Source: Histomonas meleagridis (Eukaryota; Parabasalia; Tritrichomonadida; Dientamoebidae). From it: a DNA stretch of 64,000 nt. Below, piece by piece: positions 16,682-63,538 of this stretch. Under the pieces are notes generated by a model. The model was not told where the DNA came from, made no database searches, and saw nothing but the letters and a program-made list of their open reading frames with translations. The stretch covers positions 62,001 to 126,000 of the forward strand of contig WSYJ01000009.1 of NCBI GenBank assembly GCA_020186115.1. The letters run 5' to 3'. Numbering within the stretch: position 1 is the stretch's first letter; every line of letters begins with the position of its first letter. A program made the position numbers and the translations under genes.

Positions 16682-17106
16682 TAAAACTTAATTTTTTTGA
16701 TGGTGATTTTAGTTCAAAAATGGCAAAAAATTCAATGCATATATTTTGCCAGATAAATCAATTTGATCAAACACAGTGAATAAAAACAGACAATAAAAAT
16801 TTACTTGTTTCTTAAATGTAAGATATTCTTTCATTCAACGTTCTTAAAAAGAAACTTTTTCCAACCCATATGCAAACAAAATCTGTATTTTAAAAAGATT
16901 TTTGTAAACTTTAGGTTAAAATATCTTCTAATTGAATATATACTTTAAAGAATTATAAACATAAAAATTTTGTATTATCTGTTGAATTATTCTATTTCTA
17001 AGTCTTACCATCATAATTTAAATTTTTGAGATATTTTATCTGATAATGTAGTTCAAAGATTTTATTTTTAAAAATGAAAAGTGAAAATAAGTTTTTATTT
17101 TCTATT
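16682..17106. other. Intergenic, AT-rich
   Basis: Lies between the RAB3GAP2-like start and the 3' end of ankyrin gene 1. No frame or RNA gene supported. Confidence 0.5.
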
Positions 17107-17950
17107 TTATGTTTGATTTATCCTTCCTTTTTCTTCGAGCAGCTTTACAATTTCATTATGTCCTCTTAGACGAGAAATCATTAAAGCATTCCAAAACGTT
17201 ATACATAAACGCCAAAAAATACTTTCAAATTCCAAAATTTCAAAATATACATTCTAAGAATAAAACAAATATTTTCGGCTTCAAAATCAATTCCTTCAGT
17301 TTCAATGAGGCGTTTTACTATATCAATGTGACCATTTTCACATGCTCTCATAAGTGCTGTTCCATATTATTTAAATAATTTCCAAATTTGTTAAGAATAC
17401 ATAAAATATTCTAAAAAATCATTGAATGCATTGAATTCACATCTTTTGCATTAATTTCAATTTCATCACTTCTAAGAAGTAGCTCAACTATTTCTGTATT
17501 ACCATTTTGTGATGCTAAGATCAATGCTGAAAAAAGAAATTAAAATGAATTCCAATAATAACAATAAAACTTCAAATATTAAATATATACATCAAAATCA
17601 ACAAAAAAATATTTTTTGAATTCGGATTTATTTCTTTTTGTTCAAGAAGAGCTTTAGCAATACTCGAATGACCATTTTCAGCTACAATTGTAAGTGCTGT
17701 ATCAAAAACATTAAATAAAATCCAAAAATTAAAATGAAGTATAAAATAAATTAAACATTCATCAAATAAAAACTATAAATATTTTTAGCATTGGTATCAA
17801 TTCCTTTTTGTTCAAGTAATAATTTAACAATATCAATTTTACCATCTGAACAAGCATTTAAAAGAGTTGTCCAATTTCATATTAACAAACGCCAAATAAT
17901 ATTAATAAATATTAAATAAATGGGAAAAATTTCAAATGAAACAAAAAAAT
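17107..17950 (-). repeat. Ankyrin gene 1: five split ankyrin modules with exact 80-nt spacers
   Basis: On the minus strand the modules begin (first base of the Thr-like codon) at 17870, 17700, 17530, 17360 and 17190: the spacing is exactly 170 nt four times. Each of the first four is an open 30-codon block (for example TTLLNACSDGKIDIVKLLLE... and TALMRACENGHIDIVKRLIE...). Spacers are 80 nt, contain stops and shift the frame by +2. The fifth module (NALMISRLRGHNEIVKLLEE...) is a capping-type repeat ending in a TAA at 17107-17109. A proper terminal repeat and stop at the end of the array argue that the whole stretch 19114-17107 is one gene. No GTATGT donor or ACTAACACACAG acceptor is present. 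Confidence 0.75.
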
Positions 17951-19114
17951 ATCTTTTGCATTTATGTCAACTCCTTCTTGTTCAAGTACATATTTAATAA
18001 GTTCAGTATTTCCAGACAATGTTGCATAAACCAAAATATCATTAGGAATTTGTTTTCCTTTGAGGAAGTATTTTACCAGAAAAATATTTCCATAAGTTGC
18101 TGCTTCATTAATTAAAGAATCATTTATATCTAAAATATTTTCTTTAATTAAAAACGAAAGAATTTCATAATTATAATATTTAATACATGTTTTTCCTAAT
18201 TCATTATAATCTTCAATTTTAACAGTTTTATTATCATAAAGATATCTGAAAATTTTGTTTCTATGGAATTCAATTGCTGCTTCATATGCCTCTTCAAATG
18301 AAGAATGATTTTGTTCACATAAATGAATGATTTCAAGATTTCCACCTGCAACAGCATATTTTCCTGTGTTTAATGCATTAGCGCCATTCATAAGTAAGAA
18401 TTTGAAACAATTTATTGCTCCAAAGAATGCTGCGTAACTAATAATTGTTACATTTTCTTGATTAATATAAGAACATTTTTCATATAATGAGGGATCAATT
18501 TTTTGATTATAATCAAAGTTACTTTGAGATGATAAATCTTGAAGATTTTTAACATCATCATTTCGAATGACTTCAATAATATTTAAAGGATTTAAACCAT
18601 CATAAACATATTTTTTATGAAGTGTCCAATCATCCTTTTGAAGCTCTTTCATATTTAAATAAAATTGATAACGAAATGGAGCATTAGATATTAAACTTGC
18701 AATTTCATCTTCTAACATATAATGAGCAAAATATAATGAATATCTTTCTTTTATAGAACTTGTTTCAATTAATTTTTGATTGATCATTTTTTCGAGAAGG
18801 AAATTTGATTCTTGCGTTTCTAAAAGTAATAGAAATTGCATAAAAACTTCGGTTATCGTTGGTTTAATTTCTTCTTCTTTTGCTTCAATTCCTTTTATGA
18901 AATCAAAATAAATTTTATAATCGCTTTTTTGAGATGCAAAAGATGAATAAATTAATTGACAAATAATAAGGTTAAAAGAATATGGAAATTTATCATTAAA
19001 TAAATTCATTGTTAATTGAATAGCTGTCTCAATATTTTTTAAAGAAAATATGACTTCCTCAAGTGCCTGTAAAGTTATTAGGTCTTGATTTTCATTAGAC
19101 GAAGATTGTGCCAT
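17912..19114 (-). CDS. Ankyrin gene 1: N-terminal DUF3447/ankyrin reading frame
   Basis: 400 residues in the unspliced frame. The open frame extends to a GTG at 19171, but the first ATG is 19114 (MAQSSSNEN), preceded by CACTTTTTCAGTG with an Inr-like TCAGT; this start matches three paralogues in the window. Residues 1-180 are a helical N-domain; 180-330 resemble DUF3447 (DWTLHKKYVYDG, EVIRNDDVKNLQDLS, ISYAAFFGAINCFKFLLMNGA, YAVAGGNLEIIHLCEQNHSS); 330-385 are ankyrin-like repeats ending GVDINAKD. After that Asp codon (17951-17953) the frame runs into an 80-nt spacer and stops. The protein almost certainly continues in the five modules downstream (17107-17870). Function unknown; ankyrins of this family are taken to mediate protein-protein contacts. 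Confidence 0.75.
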   Translation of the reverse strand: MAQSSSNENQDLITLQALEEVIFSLKNIETAIQLTMNLFNDKFPYSFNLIICQLIYSSFASQKSDYKIYFDFIKGIEAKEEEIKPTITEVFMQFLLLLETQESNFLLEKMINQKLIETSSIKERYSLYFAHYMLEDEIASLISNAPFRYQFYLNMKELQKDDWTLHKKYVYDGLNPLNIIEVIRNDDVKNLQDLSSQSNFDYNQKIDPSLYEKCSYINQENVTIISYAAFFGAINCFKFLLMNGANALNTGKYAVAGGNLEIIHLCEQNHSSFEEAYEAAIEFHRNKIFRYLYDNKTVKIEDYNELGKTCIKYYNYEILSFLIKENILDINDSLINEAATYGNIFLVKYFLKGKQIPNDILVYATLSGNTELIKYVLEQEGVDINAKDIFLFHLKFFPFI

Positions 19115-19776
19115 ATGACTTCCAAGCAAAAGAATTCTATTCACTGAAAAAGTGGGATTGCACGACTTCACTTTTTTCTTTTCAAGGATTAAAATGATTG
19201 GTAATACATTATTATTCGAACTAAAGTTTGGTAAATATTATTACTTAAAAGTTTTTAAAGAATGAATTAGAAACTGAATAATTACTCAAACATTGGAAAT
19301 CACTCAGATATGAAATATTAAATATAACGTTATATTTTTATGAAAATTACACATGAATTAACTTTTCTGTAACAATCATTTATAAAATTAAATTTTAATA
19401 TGTAAAAGATTTTTTCATTTTGTTTTATGATAAAATTAAGCTTCTACTATATTTCATCAAAAATCATAACATTTCAAAAAAAAAAAAAAAAAAATGAGCA
19501 GCAGAATTCCATAAAGACCGTTAACGAAAAGCCGCCCCAACCCAATCCACCCGAAACATTTTTTAGGCTTTCACTTGTCGTACTCTGTTTCATAAGAACA
19601 AATCATCAAATTAAACCTAGGGAAGCCATCGATTTCTTAAATGAACATTTTTTTTGCATATCAAAATTTAACATATATTCCACATGTGGAATTATATATG
19701 AATCAAATGCAGTACATTTTAACACACTTAGAATTTCAGGGCATCATATCTTATTTCATAGACAAAAGTAATTTTT
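19115..19776. other. Intergenic; promoter of ankyrin gene 1 and 3' side of UBR-box gene
   Basis: Contains a long A-run (about 19478-19495). A 114-codon plus-strand frame (19427-19771) crosses the A-run, has no ATG after it in frame and no recognisable family; I do not call it a gene. Confidence 0.45.
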
Positions 19777-20878: not shown

Positions 20879-22177
20879 ATGACAAATCACATATCTAATG
20901 ATGATATTACTACCATAAACACAGGAGAGCAAAATCTGAATCATTTGTCGACAGGATTGAAATCTCTAATTGAGCTTGAGAAAACTATATTCAGTTTAAC
21001 TGAAGAAAGCCTTCAGCCTTCCATTAAAAAAGTATTTGGATTTTTTGATCTAAATTATCCCGATACATTTAATATCATTATAAGTAACATTGTTTATAAT
21101 TCATTTTCATCACGAAAGCATATATTTGATATTTACTTAAATTTTTTAAAAGCATTTGAAATGAAAGAAGAAGAAATTAATCAAAGTGTCGTTAAACTAA
21201 TACCAATATTTATCAAACGTATATCTACAAAGAACACACAAGAATCATATTATTTAATAGAGAAAATGATTGAACAAAATTTTATTGATGAAAATATCAC
21301 TAAAAATATTAATTCAAAATATTTTTCTCATTATAAAACAAAAGAAGAAAACCAAAAACAAAAGGCATCTGGGTTTAATAGAAATGATCCAATAGAAAGA
21401 TACTTTTTTGATAATTATGAAGAACTTTCAAAGAATGATTGGGAGTTTCATAAGAAATATATTAAAGAAGGAAATAATCCAAATGAAATTGCAAAAATAA
21501 TTCGAAATGATGAAATAGAAAAACTTCAAGAAATATCATCACAACCAAATTTTGATTTTAATCAAACAATAGAACCATCACTTTATGAAAGATATTCATT
21601 TGTTAATAAAAAGAATGTTACATTAATTGATTATGCAGCATTTTTTTCATCAGTTAAATGTTTTAAATTTTTACTAATGAATGGTTCAAATGTATTAAAC
21701 ACAGGTAAATATGCAGTTGCAGGTGGAAATGAAGAAATCATTCATTTATGTGAACAAAATCATTCATCATTTAAAGGTGCATATAAAGCAGCAATTATGT
21801 TTCATCGAGATGATATCTTTAAATATATTTTTGAGAATAAAATAGAAAAAATACAATCAATAGCGAAAACGTCTGAAGATAAAACGAATGATTTGGTAAG
21901 TTTTTGTATTAAAAAAGATAATTATGAAATTTTAGCATTTTTGGAAGAAAAAGGAATTAATATTGATGATGGTAATATAAATGAATCAGCAAGAAATGGA
22001 AATTTATATCTCGTTAAATATTTCCTTCAAATTAGTCGAATTCCAAAAAATATTTTGCCATTTGCTTCAGAATCAGGAAATGTTGAACTTGTGAAATATG
22101 TTTTAGAGCAAAAAGGAATTGATGTTAATGCAAAAAAATTTCATTTGAATAATTTTATATATGTTTTAATAATTTGA
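20879..22177 (+). CDS. Ankyrin gene 3: N-terminal DUF3447/ankyrin reading frame
   Basis: 432 residues to the first stop, paralogous to ankyrin genes 1, 2 and 4. Helical N-domain (about 1-190), then DWEFHKKYIKEGNNPNEIA, IIRNDEIEKLQEISSQPNFDFNQ, IDYAAFFSSVKCFKFLLMNG, YAVAGGNEEIIHLCEQNHSS and ankyrin-like repeats ending KGIDVNAK. ATG at 20879 follows an AACCGTCG box and tccataacactgta. The last 13 codons or so are spacer (a 100-nt block of 20-nt units from 22139), so the true coding end of this segment is about 22138. It continues in modules at 22239, 22389, 22559 and 22686. Confidence 0.75.
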   Translation: MTNHISNDDITTINTGEQNLNHLSTGLKSLIELEKTIFSLTEESLQPSIKKVFGFFDLNYPDTFNIIISNIVYNSFSSRKHIFDIYLNFLKAFEMKEEEINQSVVKLIPIFIKRISTKNTQESYYLIEKMIEQNFIDENITKNINSKYFSHYKTKEENQKQKASGFNRNDPIERYFFDNYEELSKNDWEFHKKYIKEGNNPNEIAKIIRNDEIEKLQEISSQPNFDFNQTIEPSLYERYSFVNKKNVTLIDYAAFFSSVKCFKFLLMNGSNVLNTGKYAVAGGNEEIIHLCEQNHSSFKGAYKAAIMFHRDDIFKYIFENKIEKIQSIAKTSEDKTNDLVSFCIKKDNYEILAFLEEKGINIDDGNINESARNGNLYLVKYFLQISRIPKNILPFASESGNVELVKYVLEQKGIDVNAKKFHLNNFIYVLII

Positions 22178-22766
22178 AATATGTTTTAATAATTTTATAT
22201 ATGTTTTAATAATTTGGAATATGTTTTAATAATTTGAAACAGCACTTCATATAGCAGTTAGAAATAATAATATAGAAATAGTAAAATTACTTTTAGATAA
22301 GGAAGGAATTGATGTTAATGCAAAATATATTCATTTGAATAATTTTGGATATGTTTTAATACTTTTATATATGTTTCAATAATTCGAAACACCATTTCAT
22401 ATAGCAGTTAGAAATAATAATATAGAAATTGTAAAATTAATTTTAGATAAAGAAGGAATTGATGTTAATGCAAAAAATAATCATTTGAATAATTTTGGAT
22501 ATGTTTTAATACTTTTATATATGTTTTAATAATTTGGAATATGTTTTAGTAATTTGAAACAGCACTTCATATAGCAGTTAGAAATAATAATATAGAAATA
22601 ATAAAATTACTTTTAGATAAAGGAATTGATGTTAATGCAAAATATATTCATTTGAATAATTTAAAATATGTTTTGAAAATATTTTACTGCAATTCAAATT
22701 GCAGAACAAAAAGGATACACGGAAATAGTAAATTTACTTCGTGAAAAAAGTACGAACGAAAATTGA
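22139..22766 (+). repeat. Ankyrin gene 3: four split modules with 100-, 60-, 80- and 40-nt spacers
   Basis: Modules restart at 22239 (TALHIAVRNNNIEIVKLLLD), 22389 (TPFHIAVRNNNIEIVKLILD), 22559 (TALHIAVRNNNIEIIKLLLD) and 22686 (TAIQIAEQKGYTEIVNLLRE), the last ending in TGA at 22764-22766. Spacers are 100, 60, 80 and 40 nt, each a whole number of 20-nt units such as ATATGTTTTAATAATTTGAA. The spacer lengths leave different frames (100 and 40 are +1, 60 is 0, 80 is +2 mod 3), yet every module is open in its own frame. Confidence 0.75.
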
Positions 22767-23640
22767 TCATATCCAGACATCAAAACTCAGCAATCGAACT
22801 TACAAAAAATGTATATATAAACTCAATACCAGAAGCTGTTTATATGTTATGAATTTCAACAAAAAACAATCGAGGAATTTAAAGTTGAATCCCCCTTTTT
22901 TATAAATATAAAAATTAAAATTTTCAATGCTATGATTAAAATTTAGCTTGGTCAAAAAATCTCTTAATTAGAAGTAGTACTTTTACAATATATATATGTT
23001 AGCCTATATTAAATATACTTATTTTATTTTTATATTGAAACTTTATGTTTTTTCTTTTACTATTGAGTTGATCAAATTAATCTGCTAGCCGATGCCCAAC
23101 CACGAAAATATCTAATAACCACCCAGTGCGAACTGAATATTATTAAGAAAAAAAAAAATTTTTATATTTATTTTTTGATGTTTATTTGATTTTTACTTAG
23201 TTTTCAATTAGTATTTGGACATCGTAAACATATTGTAAGGAAATGTAAAATATAAAGTAGTCATGAATTCAAATAAACTATAGAAATAAAACTGTAATTT
23301 TTTCACTAAAAGTGAAAATCGACTTTTTCATTCAAACTTTTTGATAATAAATGCGTAATTGTAAAACAATTTTTCTTTACTTATCCTTATATTAAAATAA
23401 GATACAGATAACAACATAATAAATTATAAGGATATTAAATATATATGGGCAAATATAGTCAAATATGGAAATAATTGCTTGTACTGAATCAAAAACAGTT
23501 TTTTTATTTGAGTCAAATATAATCAAATATGGAAATAATCGCTTGTACTGAATCAAAAACATTTTTTTTATTTGAGTCAAATATAATCTGTTAAATCGAT
23601 TCAATAAGATTTGAATTGTTGTTTTATGTTTAAAGAAGCA
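22767..23640. other. Intergenic; includes a 64-bp tandem duplication
   Basis: No gene supported. At about 23455-23585 a 64-bp unit occurs twice (GTACTGAATCAAAAACA at 23481 and 23545, each followed by a T-run and TTTGAGTCAAATATA). It abuts the 69-bp satellite. Confidence 0.55.
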
Positions 23641-25360
23641 AAACACAATCAAACAAAACATTTTATTTCTTTTTTATTTATTACATAAAGATAATTAATA
23701 TTAAAAAAGCAAAACACAATCAAAAAACATTTTATTTCTTTTTTATTTATTACATAAAGATAATTAATATTGAAGAAGCAAAACACAATCAAAAAACATT
23801 TTATTTCTTTTTTATTTATTACATAAAGATAATTAATATTGAAGAAGCAAAACACAATCAAAAAACATTTTATTTCTTTTTTATTTATTACATAAAGATA
23901 ATTAATATTAAAAAAGCAAAACACAATCAAAAAACATTTTATTTCTTTTTTATTTATTACATAAAGGTAATTAATATTAAAAAAGCAAAACACAATCAAA
24001 AAACATTTTATTTCTTTTTTATTTATTACATAAAGATAATTAATATTAAAAAAGCAAAACACAATCAAAAAACATTTTATTTCTTTTTTATTTATTACAT
24101 AAAGATAATTAATATTGAAGAAGCAAAACACAATCAAAAAACATTTTATTTCTTTTTTATTTATTACATAAAGATAATTAATATTAAAAAAGCAAAACAC
24201 AATCAAAAAACATTTTATTTCTTTTTTATTTATTACATAAAGGTAATTAATATTGAAGAAGCAAAACACAATCAAAAAACATTTTATTTCTTTTTTATTT
24301 ATTACATAAAGATAATTAATATTAAAAAAGCAAAACACAATCAAAAAACATTTTATTTCTTTTTTATTTATTACATAAAGATAATTAATATTGAAGAAGC
24401 AAAACACAATCAAAAAACATTTTATTTCTTTTTTATTTATTACATAAAGATAATTAATATTGAAGAAGCAAAACACAATCAAAAAACATTTTATTTCTTT
24501 TTTATTTATTACATAAAGATAATTAATATTAAAAAAAAGCAAAACACAATCAAAAAACATTTTATTTCTTTTTTATTTATTACATAAAGATAATTAATAT
24601 TAAAAAAGCAAAACACAATCAAAAAACATTTTATTTCTTTTTTATTTATTACATAAAGATAATTAATATTGAAGAAGCAAAAAACAATCAAAAAACATTT
24701 TATTTCTATTTTATTTATTACATAAAGATAATTAATATTAAAAAAGCAAAACACAATCAAAAAACATTTTATTTCTTTTTTATTTATTACATAAAGATAA
24801 TTAATATTAAAAAAGCAAAAAAAAAAAAAAAAACATTTTATTTCTTTTTTATTTATTACATAAAGATAATTAATATTAAAAAAAGCAAAACACAATCAAA
24901 AAAACATTTTATTTCTTTTTTATTTATTACATAAAGATAATTAATATTGAAGAAGCAAAAACACAATCAAAAAAACATTTTATTTCTTTTTTATTTATTA
25001 CATAAAGATAATTAATATTGAAGAAGCAAAACACAATCAAAAAACATTTTATTTCTTTTTATTTATTACATAAAGATAATTAATATAAAAAAAGAAAAAC
25101 ACAATCAAAAAACATTTTATTTCTTTTTTATTTATTACATAAAGATAATTAATATTAAAAAAGCAAAACACAATCAAAAAACATTTTATTTCTTTTTTAT
25201 TTATTACATAAAGATAATTAATATTGAAGAAGCAAAACACAATCAAAAAACATTTTATTTCTTTTTTATTTATTACATAAAGATAATTAATATTAAAAAA
25301 GCAAAACACAATCAAAAAACATTTTATTTCTTTTTTATTTATTACATAAAGATAATTGTA
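23634..25360. repeat. 69-bp tandem satellite, about 25 copies
   Basis: The unit contains GCAAAACACAATCAAAAAAC, then a T-rich stretch, ATTACATAAAGATAATTAAT, and a junction that is either ATTGAAGAAGC or ATTAAAAAAGC. The start of GCAAAACAC recurs every 69 bases (for example 23773, 23842, 23911, 23980). Most copies are near-identical; some carry 1-3-nt changes in A-runs, and one (about 24811) has its centre replaced by a long A-run. Because 69 is divisible by three the array gives long artefactual minus-strand frames (LYVINKKEIKCF repeats). Copies mix the two junction types without a simple order, which suggests unequal exchange among neighbours. Confidence 0.9.
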
Positions 25361-28862: not shown

Positions 28863-29513
28863 TCATGAACTATCATTAGAATCACTACTAAGATCACTAT
28901 CATCATCATTTTGTTGGTATCCAGAATGAGTATATTTTCCCCAAACATTTGTTGAGGTATTCCAAGGATTACTTGGTGAACCAAAGTCATTATTTTGATT
29001 TGAACCATTATTTGTATTTGATCCAAACTGAGTATATTTTCCCCAAACATTTGTTGATGTATTCCAAGGATTACTTGGTGAACTAAAGACACTATTTTGA
29101 TTTGAACCATTATTTGTATTTGATCTAAAATGATTTGTAAGTTTTCCCCAACCATTTGTTGAGGTATTCCAAGGATTACTTGGTGAACCAAAGTTATTAG
29201 TTTTACGTGTTCCAAAAGAAACTTGTTTTTCTAACCAATGATTATTTCCACTATTTAAAACCCAAGGATTTGATTGGTAATCGCTAAATTCTATTTTTTG
29301 TTTGTTTAAAGTTTGATTTAATACATCTTCATCATATTCAATTCCTTTTTGCTGTTTTAGTAAATCAACAATTTTTACATTTTTTATATCTGCCGCAATT
29401 AAAATCGCTGTTAAACCAGAATTATTTTTTGCATTTATATCAATCCCTTCTTGTTCAAGTAGTAACTTAACAATTTCAAAATTACTTGATGCAGCTGCAT
29501 TCATTAAAGCTGT
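28863..29513 (-). CDS. Ankyrin gene 2: last two contiguous repeats and a Trp-Gly tail
   Basis: Open segment that carries module 24 (TALMNAAASSNFEIVKLLLE, from 29513), then a repeat joined without spacer (NAKNNSGLTAILIAAD), then a non-ankyrin tail of about 150 residues. This direct junction shows what a normal 34-residue repeat looks like in this gene. The tail contains three copies, spaced 35 and 34 residues apart, of SPSNPWNTSTN(G/V)WGK followed by a SNTNNGSNQN linker, and ends in an acidic Asp/Ser run (DDDSDLSSDSNDSS) before the stop. Tryptophan-glycine dipeptides in a Ser/Asn/Gly-rich, disordered setting resemble Argonaute-binding hooks, but that is only a resemblance. Confidence 0.7.
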   Translation of the reverse strand, partial: TALMNAAASSNFEIVKLLLEQEGIDINAKNNSGLTAILIAADIKNVKIVDLLKQQKGIEYDEDVLNQTLNKQKIEFSDYQSNPWVLNSGNNHWLEKQVSFGTRKTNNFGSPSNPWNTSTNGWGKLTNHFRSNTNNGSNQNSVFSSPSNPWNTSTNVWGKYTQFGSNTNNGSNQNNDFGSPSNPWNTSTNVWGKYTHSGYQQNDDDSDLSSDSNDSS

Positions 29514-32500
29514 ATTAAATCATATGAATTAATTCCAAATAAAACATTGAAACGTCCAATTATAATAATATACATTAATTCAAATTAATAAACATCTTTA
29601 GCATTTATGTCAATTTCTTTAAATCCGAGAAGCAATTTAATAATTTCCACATTTCTATTATCACATGCAAAAATAAGTGGTGTTAAAAATAAAATTATTA
29701 AATTCCTAATTAGATATTGAAATATTAAATTTATAGAAAAAACTCTTAATAAGTTTAATAAACACCTCTATAATTTACATCTCCTTTTCCTTGATCAAGA
29801 ATTAATTTAGCGATTTCTGTGTTATATGTTTTTAATGATAACATAAATCCTGTATTATAAAATTAAAAAAAATTCCATATATTTTGATGAAATAAAAAAT
29901 TAATATTTTAAACAATAATTGATATTTAAAAATATCATTATCATTTACATCAATTCCTGCATTAATTAGTAATTTTGCAACTTCTTTCTGATTTTGTGGT
30001 AATGTTAAAATAAGTGCGTTTTGAAATGATTCAAATAATTTCCAAATATTATTTTGAAACAACGAATTAGTGATATGAACATTAAATAAAAAGAAAATAC
30101 AGTTTTGATGTTGATATTCGTATCTTTACGCGAAATAAGTAATTTAACTATTTTTTCATAACCATTTTCAGAAGCAATTAATAGTGGTGCTTTAAATTGT
30201 TTATATAAATATGAAATATTGTTTTCAAATATCAAATCATGAAAAAAAATTTTCTATAAAATTAATAAGCGCCTGGAGCATTCACATCAATTCCTTCTTG
30301 TTGAAGAAGTAATTCAAAAACATCAAAATGTCTATTAACTAATGATGATAAAAGAGCTGTATTATACAAAACAAATAAATACCAAATTTTATTTTAAGAC
30401 ATCTAATTACTGAAAAAAATATTAAATTATAAAAATATATTGATTTAGCATTTATATCTATTCCCCCATGATTAAGTAATGCTTGGACAACATCAATGTA
30501 TCCTTTTAGAGACGCAATAATAAGTGGCGTTCTAAATTCTTCATATAATTCCCATGTTTAATTTTGTAATTATATAATTTTATTACAAATACGAAATGAA
30601 TTGATTAAACATCTATACAATTAACATCAATTCCTTCATATTCTAGAAGTAATTTTACTGTCTCAATATGATCGAATGTTGTTGCCAAAACAAGTGGCGT
30701 ATTAAATATTTTGAATAGTTTCCAAATTTGATGTTGAAATCCAAAATTATCGAAATAAATAAAAAACTATATAAATAAAAGTCTTTAGCTTCCAAATCTG
30801 CCCTTTTATTATCAATTAGCATTTTAATAATTTTATGATAACCTTTTTCAGCTGCCCAAAATAATGCTGTTGAAAATCATTTATTAAAATTTCTTATATA
30901 TTAAGAGAACAAGAAATTTTAAAATATCACATTAAACAATCCAAATTAATATCTTTAAGAATTATATCAATTCCTTCATATTCAACAAGTAATTCAATAA
31001 TTTGAGAGAAATTCTTTTCGAATGCATATGAAAGAGCATTTTTATATAATTTTAATAAATATCAAATATAAACATGATACATAAAGTTATTGAAATAATG
31101 TTTAAAAATTATAAATCAATATCTTTAGCATTAACATCAATTCCTTTATGTTCGAGAAGTAATTTAACAATTCCAACATTATTTCTTTCGGTTACACTTA
31201 TAAGTAAAGTTTTAAAATTTTTTAACAAAATCCATATACTTTATAAAAACATTATAATATTATAATAAACAAATTATAAACAAAATTAATATCTTGTGTA
31301 TTGACATCAATACCTTCTTGCTGAAGAAGTACACCAACAGTTTCTGTGTTTCCATTTTCAGACGCTGATAAAAGTGCTGTAGAAAATAATTTGAATAATT
31401 TCCAAATATTATTTAAAAATTTCAAATTATTTAAGTAAACATAATAAAGAACAAACAAAAGTTTTTAGCATTTATATTAATTTCTTTATGCTTAAGGATT
31501 TCTTTAACAATTTCAGTTTGACCTCTACGTGCAGCCAAAATAAGTGGCGTATTATTTAAATCGAAAAAACACCAAAAATTACAATGAAATATTAAATCAT
31601 TAGAAGTAACAGTAATTAATAGTAAAAAACATCACGAGAATTCAGATCTGTTGAATCCAAAAGTTTTAGTATTATTTTGTTTAATCCTTTATCCATTGCA
31701 ATTATGAGTGCTGTTTGAAATAATTTGAATTAATTCCATATATTATGATGAAATATTTTAATTATCAAACAAATATTATAAAATACAAAGTAATATCTTT
31801 GGCACTTAAATCAATTCCCTCTTTTTCAAGTAATAAATCAATAATTTCGTTCTTGCTATCTCTTAAAGAAATGATTAAAAGTGATCTGAATAATTTAAAT
31901 ATATTCCAAATCTTTGTATAAAACATAAAGTTAACGAAATAATTCTTAAAAATATGAAATAATCATCTTTTGCATTGATATCAAATTCTTTTCGGTCTAG
32001 AAATAGTTTAAAGATTTCTGTTTGATCATTTTTCAATGCAATGACATATGCAGTTTCAAATAATTTGAGAAAATTCCAAATAAAAATATGAAACATCAAA
32101 TCATATAGTTAAATATAAAACAAATTATTTAAATATTTTTAGCATTTATATCAATTTCTTTTTGTTCAAGAAGTAATTTGACTATTTCAATGCTACGTTG
32201 ACCAACTGCTAATATGAGAGCCGTACATAATAATTTGAACAAGAACCAAATTTTTATTATAAACATCAATTTTATAAGATAAATTGCATATTATGGATAT
32301 AAATATCGATAGCATTTATATCAATTCCTTTATGATTAAGAAGTAATTTTGCTATTTCTATGTTATTGTTTTGAGCTGCACACATGAGTGCTGTTCTAAA
32401 TAATGATAATAATTTCCAAATATTTTGTTGAAACATTAAATATTTGAGCAAAACTTTAATAAATTTAAATATACACCTTTAAAATTAATATCAACGCTTT

Positions 32501-33451
32501 CTTTTTCAAGAAATAGCTCAACAATATCAATTTTTCCTTTTAAAGATGCCCAAATAAGTGGAGTTTGAAATCATTTGTATAAAATCCAAATATAATTTAG
32601 AAATTTCAAATATTTTAATTATACATTATATTAAACAAATAAAAATTAGTTATATTAAGATCAATTCCTTTATTTTCAATAAGTAATTTAACAAAATCTA
32701 TTTTATTATCATATAATGCAATCATAAGAGGTGAATCAAATGTTTTTATTGAACTCCAAACATTACTTATAAATATTTAAATCAAAAAATGAAACCTATT
32801 TAAATAAAATGAATTATTTTAGCATTAAGATTAATATCTTTGTGCTCAAGAAGTAATTTAACAAAATCGATATTATTATTCTTTATTGCAATCGTAAGTG
32901 GTGAATCAAATATGATTTTAAAATATTAAATTATTATAATAAACGCAAATCAAAAAAATTATACATTTATTCCATTTACATTAATATATTTTTGTTGAAG
33001 AAGTAATTTAACTATTTCTGTTAGATTATTTTTCACTGCAATTGTAAGTGCATTTTCAAAAAAATTGATTAAATTCCAAAAATTTTGTGCATAAACCAAA
33101 TTAAATAAACAAACATTAAATCAATCAACTAAAAATTATCATTATTTAGATCAATTTCATTAAATTGAACAAGTAATTTAAAAATTTCTATTTGATTATT
33201 TCTTACTGCAATTGTAAGCGGAGTATCAAATTATATAAATAATTTCCATATATTAGAAAACATTCAACTAAAAAAATAAACATTAAATAAATAAAATAAA
33301 GTGATTTAGTATTTATATTAATTCCTTCTTGTTGAAGAAGAAGTTTAGCAATTATAGTATTTTTATTTCTCATAGCAATCATAAGAGCGCCCTCAAAAAA
33401 TTTAATTAAACTTCAAAATTTACATATAAACATGAAATTAAAGTAATGAAC
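29514..33451 (-). repeat. Ankyrin gene 2: array of 23 further split ankyrin modules with quantised spacers
   Basis: Modules (minus strand, first base of the Thr-like codon) start at 33391, 33224, 33054, 32904, 32734, 32564, 32394, 32224, 32054, 31887, 31714, 31550, 31380, 31210, 31040, 30870, 30700, 30530, 30360, 30190, 30020, 29853 and 29683; the next is 29513. The step is 170 nt in 17 of 23 cases; 167, 164 and 173 differ by whole codons, and one step is 150 (a 60-nt spacer). Every module is open for about 30 codons although they differ greatly from each other (for example TPLIWASLKGKIDIVELFLE versus SALL-type and NALSYAFEKNFSQIIELLVE). Spacers contain stops and shift the frame. In the eleven 80-nt spacers I wrote out (between 31210 and 29514, and neighbours), positions 41-46 read close to RTTTCA and positions 57-60 close to TGGA. 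Confidence 0.8.
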
Positions 33452-34807
33452 ATTTGAATTTAGTTTGATACGACCTGTTTCAAGTAAACATTGAACTAGT
33501 TCATGATTTTCTGATTCAACAGAATATGTTAAAATATTTACTGGAACTTGGTTATTTTCTATATAATATTTAACAAGATAAAAGTTACCAAATTTTGCTG
33601 CTTCATTAATATGCGAAATATCAGGTTTAAATCCTTCGTCCAGCATATAAGATAAAATTTCAAAATTATAATATTTTTGACAATATGAACATAAAAACTC
33701 AAATTCTTTAGGTGAAGAATCATTATTATTATCATTAGAATTTGGAGTAAAGTTAAAATTCATAATATTCGTAAAAGGATTAAATAATTTATTGTTAGGT
33801 CGACCATTATTGTAATAGTTAAATTGGTTTCTGTTTTTATTTTTTGCATTATCGATTTTATTTTCGAAAGAATAATGAAATATATCATTCCGATGAAACC
33901 TAATTGCAGTTTCATATGCCCCATCAAATGATGAATGTTGCTGTTCACATATGTTAATTATTTCCAAATTTCCTCCTGCAACTGCATATCTTCCTGTATT
34001 ACTTAAATTCGATCCATTTAACATTAAGAATTTAAAACATTTAATTGATCCGAAAAATGCCGCATAATCAATAAGTGAAACATCATTATTAATATATGAA
34101 TATCTTTCATAAAGTGATGGCTTAATAGTTCGATTAAAATTAAAATTCGCTTGTGTTGACATTTCTTGAAGTTTTTCTATTTCATCATTTCGAATTATGA
34201 TTGCAACTTCATCCGGATTAACTCCATCATTAACATATTTCTTATGAAGTTCCCAATCATTTTCTCGAAGTTTTGAAATATTTCTTGTAACCCCAAAATT
34301 ATTCATATTATTAGAAGGACCACAACGATAATATCCAACTTTTTCTGGTGTTATATAACGTAACATATTTTCAGGAACCCCATCATGATGAGTTTGATAA
34401 TGCGCAAAATATCTTGAATGAAGACATTTAACAATACTTGAATCAATTAAATTTTGTTGAATCATTTTATTAAGAAGATAATATGATTCTTGATTGTTTG
34501 ATTTTATTAAGTAATTACTAAACATTTCTATAATATTAGAATTTATATTTCGTTTTTTCTCCACTGCTTGTAATGTTGTTAAAAATTTTATATATAAATT
34601 ATCATCTCCTCTAAGTGAAGAAAAGGCATTCTTAACTAACATACATATAATATTATTAAAAGAATAAGGAAACTGTGTATCAAACATATTCATTATTTGT
34701 TCAATTGATTTGTTAACACTATTTTGTTGTATATCGAAAATTATATTTTCAAGATCTAAAAGAATTTGTAGATTTGTTGTTTTGTCAACATTTCCAGAAT
34801 TCTCCAT
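33413..34807 (-). CDS. Ankyrin gene 2: N-terminal DUF3447/ankyrin reading frame
   Basis: 464 residues to the first stop; the last dozen are spacer. The frame extends to a TTG at 34837, but the first ATG is 34807 (MENSGNVDK). Helical N-domain, then ENDWELHKKYVNDGVNPDEVA, IIRNDEIEKLQEMSTQANF, LIDYAAFFGSIKCFKFLMLNG, YAVAGGNLEIINICEQQHSS, an Asn-rich insert (about 345-385, NKNRNQFNYYNNGRPNN) absent from the paralogues, and ankyrin-like repeats. The whole gene runs 34807-28863 and would encode about 25 ankyrin repeats plus the WG tail. It is divergent from the eL41 gene, with 225 bp between the two ATGs. Confidence 0.75.
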   Translation of the reverse strand: MENSGNVDKTTNLQILLDLENIIFDIQQNSVNKSIEQIMNMFDTQFPYSFNNIICMLVKNAFSSLRGDDNLYIKFLTTLQAVEKKRNINSNIIEMFSNYLIKSNNQESYYLLNKMIQQNLIDSSIVKCLHSRYFAHYQTHHDGVPENMLRYITPEKVGYYRCGPSNNMNNFGVTRNISKLRENDWELHKKYVNDGVNPDEVAIIIRNDEIEKLQEMSTQANFNFNRTIKPSLYERYSYINNDVSLIDYAAFFGSIKCFKFLMLNGSNLSNTGRYAVAGGNLEIINICEQQHSSFDGAYETAIRFHRNDIFHYSFENKIDNAKNKNRNQFNYYNNGRPNNKLFNPFTNIMNFNFTPNSNDNNNDSSPKEFEFLCSYCQKYYNFEILSYMLDEGFKPDISHINEAAKFGNFYLVKYYIENNQVPVNILTYSVESENHELVQCLLETGRIKLNSNVHYFNFMFICKF

Positions 34808-59761: not shown

Positions 59762-60431
59762 TAAATTTTTTTTTTTTTTTTTTTTTTTTTGGTCATGTAT
59801 TTATATATATGCTTTGATACAAATTTTAAGCTTATGTTTGAAATTAAAATCTAAATAATCATTTTCGTTTTGTTAAATCAATAATGTTTAATGAAATGTT
59901 ATCATAAACATGTAGAATATTTTAAAAAAATAACATTAATTATTACGAAATAATATAAATTTTTTTCTTAATTGATTCATTAATTAATCATCAAGTTGAT
60001 TAAGATGGAAACATTTGACTAAAGTCTCCTGATTTTTGTAAGGTATATGATTCGACATTGTCACTTTTTAAAATCGAGAAGTTGAACATTTTTTTATTAA
60101 ATCTTTGAGCTTTCACTTACGTATTATCGAATAAAACTGGTTGAGGTGAGCTTCGTATCGTTACTAAAAACGAGACATAATAACTTGAATTTCCTGTAAA
60201 GATTGAACAAATGCAATAGTTGAATTTTTATATTTTTGACCAACAGATCGTATACAGCTCTTTTACAATGGACTAATAATACTGCATGTGATACATCGGA
60301 AAGTCAAACAAAAAACTTTTATTATTTCACTTTACGAAGCAAGAGTATTCTCATTTTTGCTTGAAAAATTCAACTTTTTCACTTGTTTATACTCTCAAAT
60401 TTTAATTATATCCGTTATTAATATTTTCCAC
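59762..60431. other. Intergenic with long T-run; promoter of ankyrin gene 4
   Basis: A run of about 24 T lies at 59767-59790. A frame open from 60288 (GTG) joins the ankyrin gene, but its first ATG is 60432, so the upstream part is taken as untranslated. Contains atatccgttatt (about 60408-60419) near the start. Confidence 0.45.
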
Positions 60432-61703
60432 ATGAGGCCAAAGGAACATTGCAACTGGGAAACAATTCTATCAATAAATCAAGCAATTTTTAGTTTGAAT
60501 GAAGAAAATTTCTCTATGTCTTTTGGTTTAATAATCAACAAATTTGATGAAATCCATCCTTTATCTTATGATTTAATTATTATTCAAATGATATATTATT
60601 CATTTGTAATCAAAAATAATAAAGTAAATTTATTTTTGAATATTATAAAAGAAATAAGAAAATTTGAAGAGTGTAATAAAATCAAATCGAATATATTTGA
60701 TATATTTGGGCGATTTCTTTATAATATGGATACATATGAATCAAATTGTCTTCTTGAAGCCATGATTGAACATAATTTTCTTGAACCAAATATCGTAAAA
60801 AACAATCAGAGTGTTTATTTTGCATATTATATGTCTAAAGAAGATTTAGCAATCCTTTTAAGGGAAAATGATTTTGTAAATTATGAAGAACTTTCAAAGA
60901 ATAATTGGGAGCTTCATAAGAAATTAATTAGAGAAGGGCATAATCCAAATGAAATAGCAAAAATAATTCGAAATGATGAAATCGAAAGACTTCAAGAAAT
61001 ATCATCACAAACGAATTTTGATTTTAATAAAACAATTGAACGATCACTTTATGAAAGATGTTCATTTATCAATAAATATAATGTTACATTAATTGATTAT
61101 GCAGCATTTTTTTCTTCTGTTAAATGTTTTAAATATTTACTTATGAATGGTGCAAAAGTAAAATATACTGGAACATATGCAATTGCAGGTGGAAATGAAG
61201 AAATTATTCATTTATGTGAACAAAATCATTCATCGTTTGAAGATGCATATGAAGCAGCAATTGCATTTCATCAAAATGAAATTTTTCATTATATTTATGA
61301 GAATAAATTAAAAGAAATTAATAATTTAGAAGAAATAGGAAAGTTTTGTGTTTTGTATCATAATTATGAAATATTTTCATTTTTAGTTAAAGAAGGAATG
61401 AAAATAAATGATGATATTATTAATGAATCAGCAATTATTGGAAATATTCTTTTAGTTGAAGATTTTCTTAAAGAGCATTCAATTCCTCATGATATATTAA
61501 TATTTTCATCTAGATCAGGAAATATTGAACTTGTTGAATACGTTTTAAAACAAGAAGGAATTGATATTAATGCTAAAGATATTTATTTGTTTTATTTAAA
61601 ATTTATTTTGATAATTTTATATTTCAAAATAATGTTTGGAAATTATTTAAATTATTTGAAACAGCACTTATCAAAGCATCTTATTATGGTCGAACAGATA
61701 TAG
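60432..61703 (+). CDS. Ankyrin gene 4: N-terminal DUF3447/ankyrin reading frame
   Basis: 423 residues to the first stop; true coding to the Asp codon 61578-61580, then spacer. Start MRPKEHCNWETILSINQAIF aligns with the paralogues' N-domains. Landmarks: NNWELHKKLIREGHNPNEIA, IIRNDEIERLQEISSQTNFDF, IDYAAFFSSVKCFKYLLMNG, YAIAGGNEEIIHLCEQNHSS, then EIFSFLVKEGMKINDDI and ankyrin-like repeats ending GIDINAKD. Closest to ankyrin gene 3 in these motifs. The gene is completed by the modules 61661-63154. Confidence 0.75.
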   Translation: MRPKEHCNWETILSINQAIFSLNEENFSMSFGLIINKFDEIHPLSYDLIIIQMIYYSFVIKNNKVNLFLNIIKEIRKFEECNKIKSNIFDIFGRFLYNMDTYESNCLLEAMIEHNFLEPNIVKNNQSVYFAYYMSKEDLAILLRENDFVNYEELSKNNWELHKKLIREGHNPNEIAKIIRNDEIERLQEISSQTNFDFNKTIERSLYERCSFINKYNVTLIDYAAFFSSVKCFKYLLMNGAKVKYTGTYAIAGGNEEIIHLCEQNHSSFEDAYEAAIAFHQNEIFHYIYENKLKEINNLEEIGKFCVLYHNYEIFSFLVKEGMKINDDIINESAIIGNILLVEDFLKEHSIPHDILIFSSRSGNIELVEYVLKQEGIDINAKDIYLFYLKFILIILYFKIMFGNYLNYLKQHLSKHLIMVEQI

Positions 61704-63154
61704 TTAAATTACTTCTTGAACAAGAAGGAATTGATATTAATATCAAAAATATTTATTTGTTTTATTTGATATTTGTTTTTATAATTTCGTATTTCAAAAT
61801 AATATTTGGAAATTATTTAAATTATTTAGAACAGCACTTTTTGAAGCATCATCAAAAGGTCATACAGAAATAGTTAAATTACTTCTTGAACAAAAAGGAA
61901 TTGATATTAATGCTAAAGATAATTTTTGCTTTCATAATTTGGTATTTCAAAATAATAATTGGAAATTATTTAAATTATTTGATACAGCACTTATGATAGC
62001 ATCTTATGAAGGTCATACAGAAATAGTTAAATTACTTCTTGAACAAAAAGGAATTGATATTAATGCTAAAGATAAAATAAATTTAAATAATTTGAAATTT
62101 CAAAATAATATTTGGAAATAATTTAAATTATTCAGAACAGCACTTATGTTTGCATCTAGAAATGGTTATACAGAAATAGTTAAATTACTTCTTGAACAAG
62201 AAGGAATTGATATTAATGCTAAAGATATTTATTTGTTTTATTTGAAATTTATTTTAATAATTTGATATTTCAAAATAATATTTGGAAATTATTTAATACA
62301 GCACTTATGAATGCATCTAGAGATGGACATATAGAAATAGTTAAATTACTTCTTGAACAAGAAGGAATTGATATTAATGCTAAAGATAATTTTTGCTTTC
62401 ATAATTTGGTATTTCAAAATAATATTTGAAAATTATTTAAATTATTTGATACAGCACTTATGATAGCATCTTATGAAGGTCATACAGAAATAGTTAAATT
62501 ACTTCTTGAACAAAAAGGAATTGATCTTAATGCTAAAGATAATTTTTGCTTTCATAATTTCTTATTTCAAAATAATATTTGGAAATTATTTAAATTATTT
62601 AGAACAGCACTTTTTGAAGCATCTTATTATGGTTACACAGAAATAGTTAAATTACTTCTTGAACAAGAAGGAATTGATATTAATGCTAAAGATAATTTTT
62701 GCTTTCATAATTTGGTATTTCAAAATAATATTTGAAAATTATTTAAATTATTTGATACAGCACTTATGATAGCATCTTATGAAGGTCATACAGAAATAGT
62801 TAAATTACTTCTTGAACAAAAAGGAATTGATCTTAATGCTAAAGATAATTTTTGCTTTCATAATTTCTTATTTCAAAATAATATTTGGAAATTATTTAAA
62901 TTATTTAGAACAGCACTTTTTGAAGCATCTTATTATGGTTACACAGAAATAGTTAAATTACTTCTTGAACAAGAAGGAATTGATATTAATAATAAAGATA
63001 TTTATTTGTTTTATTTGAAATTTATTTTAATAATTTAATATTTCAAAATAATATTTGGAAATTATTTAAATTATTTAATACACCACTTATGAATGCATCT
63101 GAAAATGGTAACACAGAAATAGTTAAATTACTTCTTGAAAAAAGATGGAATTGA
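61581..63154 (+). repeat. Ankyrin gene 4: ten split modules, 80-nt and shortened 63- or 71-nt spacers
   Basis: Modules begin at 61661, 61831, 61984, 62137, 62298, 62451, 62604, 62757, 62910 and 63080; the steps are 170, 153, 153, 161, 153, 153, 153, 153 and 170. The spacers are 80 nt (first two and last), 63 nt (most) or 71 nt. The 80-nt spacer reads as four 20-nt units: ATTTATTTGTTTTATTTGAA-like, ATTTATTTTAATAATTTGAT, ATTTCAAAATAATATTTGGA and AATTATTTAAATTATTTGAA. The 63-nt form has lost 17 nt from the first two units and is in frame, but three of six copies carry TGA or TAA. Modules are nearly identical (TALMIASYEGHTEIVKLLLE). The last module has a one-base insertion after LLLEK and ends in TGA (63152-63154). 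Confidence 0.8.
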
Positions 63155-63538
63155 TATTAATGCTATAAATATTTATTTTTCGTGTTAATTATTAAATGAA
63201 AAGATCCTTTCAAATATTGCATTAAAAAAAATTTAGTTAAATAAAAACATTCTCCACCACATTATAAATAAATTACATTAACTGATCTGCTCGGATTAAC
63301 CTGTTTTTGGACGAGCTGGGTTGTAATGAGTGAATTGAATGGTTGTAAAATAACATTTTGGTTTGAATTGTCAGATTTATACAACCATGTTACAACAGTG
63401 AACTGACAGACAACAATAGCTCTCAATTTGTTATTGACTTATTTTATGGTCATTATTTCATATGAAATGTCATGGATAGCGGTTAGTTTACATATCGTGT
63501 TATTCAAAAAGTTTTATCGTAAAATTTATAAAAATTAA
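63155..63538. other. Intergenic, no supported gene
   Basis: 3' flank of ankyrin gene 4, then AT-rich sequence with a short 26-codon frame at 63327 that I do not support. Confidence 0.45.

Follow-up and report, generated by a model that had tools for sequence, protein, structure and literature searches.

Gene 2 of a 64-kilobase (kb) window of the Histomonas meleagridis genome is a minus-strand ankyrin gene, running from about 34807 to 28863, whose reading frame appears to be interrupted some 90 times by non-coding elements of 17 nucleotides (nt) with single codons between them. The window is the whole stretch of DNA analysed, and its positions are used throughout. H. meleagridis is an intron-poor trichomonad and poultry parasite, and its genome (43.28 megabases (Mb), 121 contigs) holds many arrays of the same kind. 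We regard this anatomy, together with the need to skip the elements, as close to certain from the DNA itself. The best explanation of the whole, to which we give slightly better than an even chance, is that these are ankyrin genes whose 17-nt elements would be cut from RNA by a length-measuring activity.

Ankyrin modules alternate with spacers of 17-nt elements and single codons

Exon 1 of gene 2 matched the Pfam family PF11929 (expectation value (E) 5.3e-7) and also Ank_4 and Ank_2. Beyond it lie 24 ankyrin modules, all open, with anchors from 33391 to 29513. Of the 23 spacers, 22 measure exactly 80 nt and one 60 nt, as a first-pass annotation of this DNA had described; it had likewise noted rightly that the modules are open and that the spacers contain stops (the three frames are open in 6, 1 and 6 of the 22 80-nt spacers). 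Its count of 170-nt module steps, 17 of 23, was too low: this step does dominate and the others differ by whole codons save one of 150 nt, but it occurs 19 times, next to two steps of 167 nt, one of 164 nt and the one of 150 nt. No spacer follows module 24, which continues into a contiguous repeat and then into the C-terminal tail, with its 102-nt coding tandem repeat (28919–29193).

The division of the spacers into 20-nt units, also proposed at first pass, stands, but the real unit is smaller. As we parse it, every unit of 20 nt consists of a 17-nt element, 5′-RTTT-N9-ATTT-3′, and one codon after it, because the triplet at the unit end is variable yet stop-free, and the elements sit exactly between codons. 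The four unit-end triplets of 223 unique 80-nt spacers held 0 stops in 892, of which 149 start with T; 58.4 stops were expected from the T-initial counts and 50.6 from independent base frequencies, figures that serve as a guide and not as a clean null, given that T-tract registers are depleted too, though none to zero. The unit-end register was the sole one to combine an expectation above 1 with zero stops; two others were at or near zero (unit start, 0; offset 13, 1), but the expectation there was below 1. Gly was encoded by the third unit-end triplet in 191 of the 223 spacers with synonymous third bases (GGA 173, GGT 10, GGG 6, GGC 2). In order, the common residues of the four codons are N/K/D/E, D/Y/N, G and K/E/N/D/W/Q/R, and with the elements skipped they spell the ankyrin loop D-x-x-G-x-T.

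From 342 unique loops we parsed 1,278 elements, of which 1,247 were 17 nt, 19 were 18 nt and 12 were 16 nt long; because the parse sets a penalty on stops and on any other length, this length count leans to 17, and stop counts were taken from the register count instead. The elements have R(93%)TTT and ATTT ends around a loose middle; among 641 unique elements the 5′ end is A in 74% and G in 19%, then T in 75%, and the 3′ end is T in 89%. In gene 2 the element length is fixed, the ends are conserved and the middle is randomised: over 84 elements from 21 of the 23 blocks, pairwise identity was 0.681 at positions 1–4 and 14–17, and 0.424 at positions 5–13 versus 0.425 by chance from composition.

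Skipping the elements restores a constrained ankyrin protein

When gene 2 was decoded with the elements skipped, its 91 loop codons contained 0 stops, versus up to 37 in other registers (two uninformative T-rich registers likewise gave 0), and the third loop codon was Gly in 19 of 23 blocks. The decoded loops read, for example, RDTNGNTPL, KNYEGSTAL and KDFWGNTPL. The product lies far above the Pfam gathering cut-offs (Ank, 463.9 bits against 21.1; Ank_2, 512.5 against 27.3), and skipping restores the 102-nt (34-residue) spacing of contiguous repeats, of which five gaps were sampled. With its 34-residue repeats and D-x-x-G-x-T loops the product resembles ankyrin repeat proteins with DUF3447; to our knowledge, no other ankyrin gene has inserts between its loop codons.

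The removal of 71 nt once per repeat, which the first-pass annotation had put forward, is stop-free but fails on the protein: the loop loses its Gly, is one residue short and, blind to the internal codons, scores lower in Pfam (Ank 388.4 bits versus 463.9 for the decoded form, Ank_4 225.0 versus 359.9, Ank_5 199.0 versus 301.1, Ank_2 487.8 versus 512.5). One minor family, ANK_LRRK2, went in the opposite direction (41.9 bits decoded, 54.7 under the 71-nt model). We also rejected an intron of 68 nt, against which stops at codons +2 (15/223) and −3 (13/223) speak; continuous translation of the spacer in the downstream frame, which is open in 128 of 223 spacers overall but in 6 of 22 in gene 2; and the conserved GG as part of a Trp codon, this being the Gly codon in another register.

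Comparison of the 21 full-length modules of gene 2 showed greatest identity at codon position 2 (0.715), with 0.536 at position 1 and 0.534 at position 3; spacer identity, 0.571, was close to that of third positions (chance 0.378). Modules have therefore kept a protein constraint while spacers diverged, which bears out the first-pass proposal of coding modules under selection and spacers to be removed or skipped. Across modules, structural ankyrin codons are conserved (proportions of nonsynonymous (pN) and synonymous (pS) differences: codon 16, 0.089 and 0.287; codon 24, 0.061 and 0.201), and codons 5, 8, 9, 11 and 12, which we take to be surface positions of the repeats, are highly variable (pN 0.37 to 0.66). 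Hypervariable surface codons (4, 5, 8, 9, 11, 12) suggest a diversified binding repertoire, to which module shuffling between arrays perhaps contributes.

The arrays form a large family

Three more genes of like design lie in the window (Table 1). Loops of the fourth gene decode likewise (KYGE and DRGR are examples), and the loop blocks inspected in the second and third genes can be read in the same way. In the second gene, several elements within 22144–22239 are nearly identical to each other (ATATGTTTTAATAATTT), unlike those of gene 2, pointing to a recent duplication of element plus codon. Elsewhere in the window, a 69-nt tandem repeat (24.9 copies, 96% matches, 23630–25357) overlaps minus-strand open frames.

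Table 1. Gene 2 and genes of like design in the window. Loop blocks 1–23 were read from the sequence and the decoding of gene 2, and block 0 was parsed by eye; single letters are the residues of the codons that follow successive elements.
Feature	Position	Strand	Content or basis
Gene 2 exon 1, N-terminal domain (DUF3447/ankyrin)	33452..34807	-	Open frame from ATG to first element; open reading frame (ORF) list and Pfam
Loop block 0 (exon 1/module 1 junction)	33392..33451	-	Three 17-nt elements, a codon after each: H, E, E
Gene 2 modules 1–23 (28–30 codons) alternating with 23 loop blocks	29514..33391	-	Module 24 starts at 29513
Loop block 1	33225..33304	-	4 elements; codons ambiguous, two possible parses, one with two adjacent elements
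Loop block 2	33055..33134	-	N, G, G, E, each after 17 nt
Loop block 3 (60 nt)	32905..32964	-	Three elements; C, N, D
Loop block 4	32735..32814	-	R, N, G, D
Loop block 5	32565..32644	-	N, E, G, Q
Loop block 6	32395..32474	-	K, N, G, R
Loop block 7	32225..32304	-	A, D, G, C
Loop block 8	32055..32134	-	Y, D, G, E
Loop block 9	31885..31964	-	K, Y, G, R
Loop block 10	31715..31794	-	N, N, G, Q
Loop block 11	31551..31630	-	T, N, G, N
Loop block 12	31381..31460	-	Y, E, G, S
Loop block 13	31211..31290	-	F, N, G, K
Loop block 14	31041..31120	-	K, Y, D, K
Loop block 15	30871..30950	-	N, L, E, S
Loop block 16	30701..30780	-	F, W, G, N
Loop block 17	30531..30610	-	R, I, G, R
Loop block 18	30361..30440	-	N, D, G, N
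Loop block 19	30191..30270	-	K, D, H, K
Loop block 20	30021..30100	-	N, V, G, Q
Loop block 21	29854..29933	-	I, F, G, N
Loop block 22	29684..29763	-	R, N, G, L
Loop block 23	29514..29593	-	N, D, G, N
Gene 2 last exon	28863..29513	-	Module 24, contiguous element-free ankyrin repeat, repetitive C-terminal tail; ORF, Pfam Ank 39.6 bits
Second gene, like design	20879..22648	+	Open frame 20879–22177 with exon 1; modules at 22049, 22239, 22389, 22559; 5, 3 and 4 elements between
Third gene, like design	17101..19171	-	Exon 1 open frame 17912–19171; six modules, 170-nt spacing
Fourth gene, like design	60288..63178	+	Exon 1 plus 11 modules, spaced by 170 or 153 nt and once by 161; last module frame-interrupted

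Across the genome, a 34-base junction pattern allowing up to 3 mismatches had 4,007 matches (2025+1982), versus 0 for the reversed pattern. In 38 non-overlapping fragments (230,789 bases) a profile of the module detected 434 modules; apart from the window, all of these fragments had been chosen for a match to the junction pattern or to gene 2's last exon. Of the 393 unique modules, 372 were open in frame; the other two frames gave 25 and 0, and the expectation from shuffles was 26.8. The score cut-off of the profile may favour intact modules. Repeat spacings below 400 nt equalled 102+17k, with k from 0 to 4, in 310 of 386 cases (170 nt, 245; 153 nt, 57; 136 nt, 2; 119 nt, 1; 102 nt, 5). The 153-nt class corresponds to a loop that lacks its first element but keeps the codon (AAT 15, AAA 10 and GAA 6 of 43), and its codon make-up is similar. 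Two elements are present in each of the two 136-nt cases and one in the single 119-nt case, and 102 nt is a contiguous repeat. Other spacings include 173 nt (13), 171 nt (13), 150 nt (7), 190 nt (5) and 167 nt (5); most are off by one codon or by an entire 20-nt unit, and further scattered values are not explained in this way. Scaling the 43 profile modules and 12 junction matches of the window to the 4,007 matches, a rough estimate from one window, the family perhaps comprises about 14,000 modules and some 50,000 elements. At locus L044, two arrays in opposite orientation (C9:77526, plus strand; C9:84064, minus strand) have nearly the same series of spacings and are probably an inverted duplication.

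The exon-1 segment of the fourth gene had matches in at least 150 genome places, a lower bound since 150 of 1966 first-look candidates were scored, and 144 of the 150 were stop-free inside. The last exon follows the array in frame at seven other sampled loci; these were fetched by searching with the last exon of gene 2 and so show existence, not frequency. Among the public protein matches listed, which were of limited lengths, the only named Histomonas proteins of the family were P0016, without an ankyrin array, and P0090, which ends at the first element (...GIDINAQNI), versus those at least 150 exon-1 matches; public gene models thus seem to lack most of the family. Sixteen N-terminal relatives (P0001–P0015 and P0017), encoded on short public contigs (source 'ena') and 42–56% identical to the query among the matches listed, may belong to another species or be further H. 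meleagridis copies. Seven of them stop one residue past the last ankyrin-module codon, and that residue is I or V, as expected of a frame that reads into RTTT; seven continue beyond the module end, mostly into residues rich in I, F, Y and L; and two are ambiguous. By title or abstract, such elements appeared in no paper within a literature search that left most subscription journals outside its scope.

How the elements might be removed

We propose that the products of these genes are ordinary ankyrin-repeat proteins: every codon of the D-x-x-G-x-T loop, usually four of them, is preceded by a 17-nt non-coding element, and most repeats are interrupted, by up to four or five elements each. The elements would be excised from RNA, each as a very short intron, and the exons between them would be single codons. 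The removing activity would read the RUUU and AUUU ends and measure 17 nt; it could consist of an endonuclease and a ligase, or be something yet undescribed. The genome has two RtcB ligase genes, a permissive finding, as RtcB is common and proves nothing. Stated broadly, it is likely that 17-nt inserts, perhaps tens of thousands of them, are either removed from RNA or jumped by the ribosome through ruler-like recognition of two AUUU-type ends and not of splice sites; given the anatomy, we infer, with somewhat more confidence than doubt, that the elements leave at the RNA stage, by a route other than ordinary splicing.

Several observations weigh against this proposal. Between modules pN/pS is 0.78–0.99 (in bins of spacer distance), for which hypervariable codons account only in part, and selection is therefore not uniformly purifying. 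Many family copies look partly decayed: stops occur in 21 of the 393 modules, the frame of the window's fourth gene breaks in the last module, several matches to exon 1 are divided over different frames and, among the loci listed, most consensus-like arrays are without a recognised last exon. The T-tract registers 3, 5, 14 and 15 are depleted of stops as well (39 versus 106 expected, 19 versus 67, 12 versus 55 and 16 versus 128), and element length is not perfectly invariant, 31 of 1,278 being 16 or 18 nt. The elements hold no signal beyond their T-rich ends, so that recognition is hard to imagine, and RNAalifold gave 0 pairs over the 22 whole spacers of gene 2 (single elements were not folded), with neither a conserved fold nor a tRNA-type or HAC1-type intron stem at the cut sites. 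Frame-restoring removals of 17 nt outside ankyrin loops were not in excess in 231 kb (12 sites versus 12–13 for other lengths), a small sample drawn, except for the window, from fragments picked for ankyrin matches. A processed, element-free form was not apparent in a table of 120 of 6179 protein matches, of which only known relatives were opened.

Programmed bypassing, in which the elements stay in the mRNA and are skipped one by one by the ribosome, which resumes at the next codon, has a modest chance of being correct. The constant length and the missing splice signals are compatible with a ribosomal jump, and the mitochondrial inserts of Magnusiomyces and the gap of T4 gene 60 are likewise short non-coding inserts in open frames, numerous in the mitochondrial case; one yeast mitochondrial genome has 81 jumps, several without perfectly matched codons (from passages of PMC5009743). 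Classical hopping requires a matching landing codon, to which mitochondria provide exceptions (same passages). The elements differ from these systems in lying in nuclear genes, in their one fixed length and in their take-off and landing codons: the two triplets are equal in 19 of the 1016 elements from regular loops and share their first two bases in 25, the common take-off codons being GGA, GAT, AAT, AAA and TAT and the landing triplet TTT in 825. A stop after the take-off codon of the gene 60 type was absent (registers 0, 20, 40 and 60: no stops among 892 triplets that open an element). The lack of a conserved fold over whole spacers may tell against bypassing too, and four jumps within five codons over some 24 repeats would demand near-perfect efficiency. 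Classical hopping is disfavoured because the landing codons are unmatched.

A retained spliceosome might instead excise the elements as unusual introns with non-GT–AG ends, which we consider unlikely. Spliceosome parts are present in the genome: Prp8 (open frame of 2333 amino acids), U2 with TGTAGTATC, and U6, whose match of 43.7 bits lies just below the gathering score of 44 and includes ACAGAGA. The ultrashort introns of Stentor and Bigelowiella are spliceosomal and have GT–AG ends. The elements approach in length the 15-nt introns of Stentor and the 18-nt introns of the Bigelowiella nucleomorph (parts of PMC12316389 and PMC6679479), and they share shortness and T-richness with the type A and type B spliceosomal introns of the related Trichomonas vaginalis, type B having a tight length of about 25 nt (part of PMC12316389). 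According to the same part, those of T. vaginalis have GT..AG ends and extended 5′ and branch/3′ motifs and number 63 per genome, a single one per transcript; the elements are 17 nt long with RTTT..ATTT ends, number some 90 in gene 2 and, in our sample, are confined to ankyrin loops, where they stand four in a row with 3-nt exons between them. GT..AG was found in 1 of the 1016 elements (GT start in 73, AG end in 7), and no single shift of the boundaries shared by the elements, from −3 to +3, gave both ends. The branch-point motifs CTAAC or CTAAT occurred in 3 of 1016; TAAC or TAAT occurred in 495, though these are common strings in AT-rich sequence. As the first-pass annotation had observed, the known trichomonad intron signals are missing: ACTAACACACAG is absent from gene 2 and GTATGT from the spacers, its sole occurrence being at 34644 in exon 1. 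Genome-wide, ACTAACACACAG was at chance (3 matches, reversed control 2) and GTATGT-N10–40-ACTAACACACAG had zero matches; since spliceosome parts are nevertheless present, ordinary introns of H. meleagridis probably use another motif. The core motifs of U6 and U2 look canonical, and 3-nt exons leave no room for sequential spliceosomes. Ordinary splicing is thus disfavoured because of the single-codon exons and the missing signals.

That the arrays go undecoded, as relics or as a silent archive of ankyrin modules with exon 1 alone translated, is in our view very doubtful. Some copies are broken, the public model P0090 stops at the first element (...INAQNI), and pN/pS is near 0.9 among similar units. 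Against this stand the absence of stops from all 892 loop codons, and from the 91 of gene 2 despite element middles at chance identity there, which tells against the orderly relic raised at first pass for that gene; the last exon also continues in frame past the array at the seven loci mentioned above, themselves found with that exon.

Elimination at the DNA level, giving an expressed genome version without elements, is scarcely credible: ciliate internal eliminated sequences (IESs) are short AT-rich inserts that need exact removal, as the elements do, excision between codons would look the same and single precise absences exist (the 153-nt class), but the elements have RTTT/ATTT and not TA..TA ends, trichomonads have one kind of nucleus, and insert-free copies are nearly absent from the assembly (insert-free first-slot junctions with consensus codons, 1 match versus 1,210 insert-bearing, controls 0 and 2; assembly could hide rare ones). 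With the spliceosome, hopping and DNA elimination each disfavoured, RNA removal by an activity that would read the ends and measure length is the most plausible explanation remaining.

Implications

The inserts are unlike any known intron. If they leave the RNA, they would constitute an intron class without GT–AG ends, shorter than nearly all known introns and occurring in runs with 3-nt exons, beyond what a spliceosome should handle. If instead they are passed over by the ribosome, the expression of nuclear genes would routinely include bypassing. The density of some 90 events in one gene would make the system a strong model for the question. Either way, gene annotation of this veterinary pathogen covers its ankyrin family poorly and, if our reading is true, H. 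meleagridis has a new way to interrupt and restore the reading frame, in a large ankyrin family with hypervariable surface codons.

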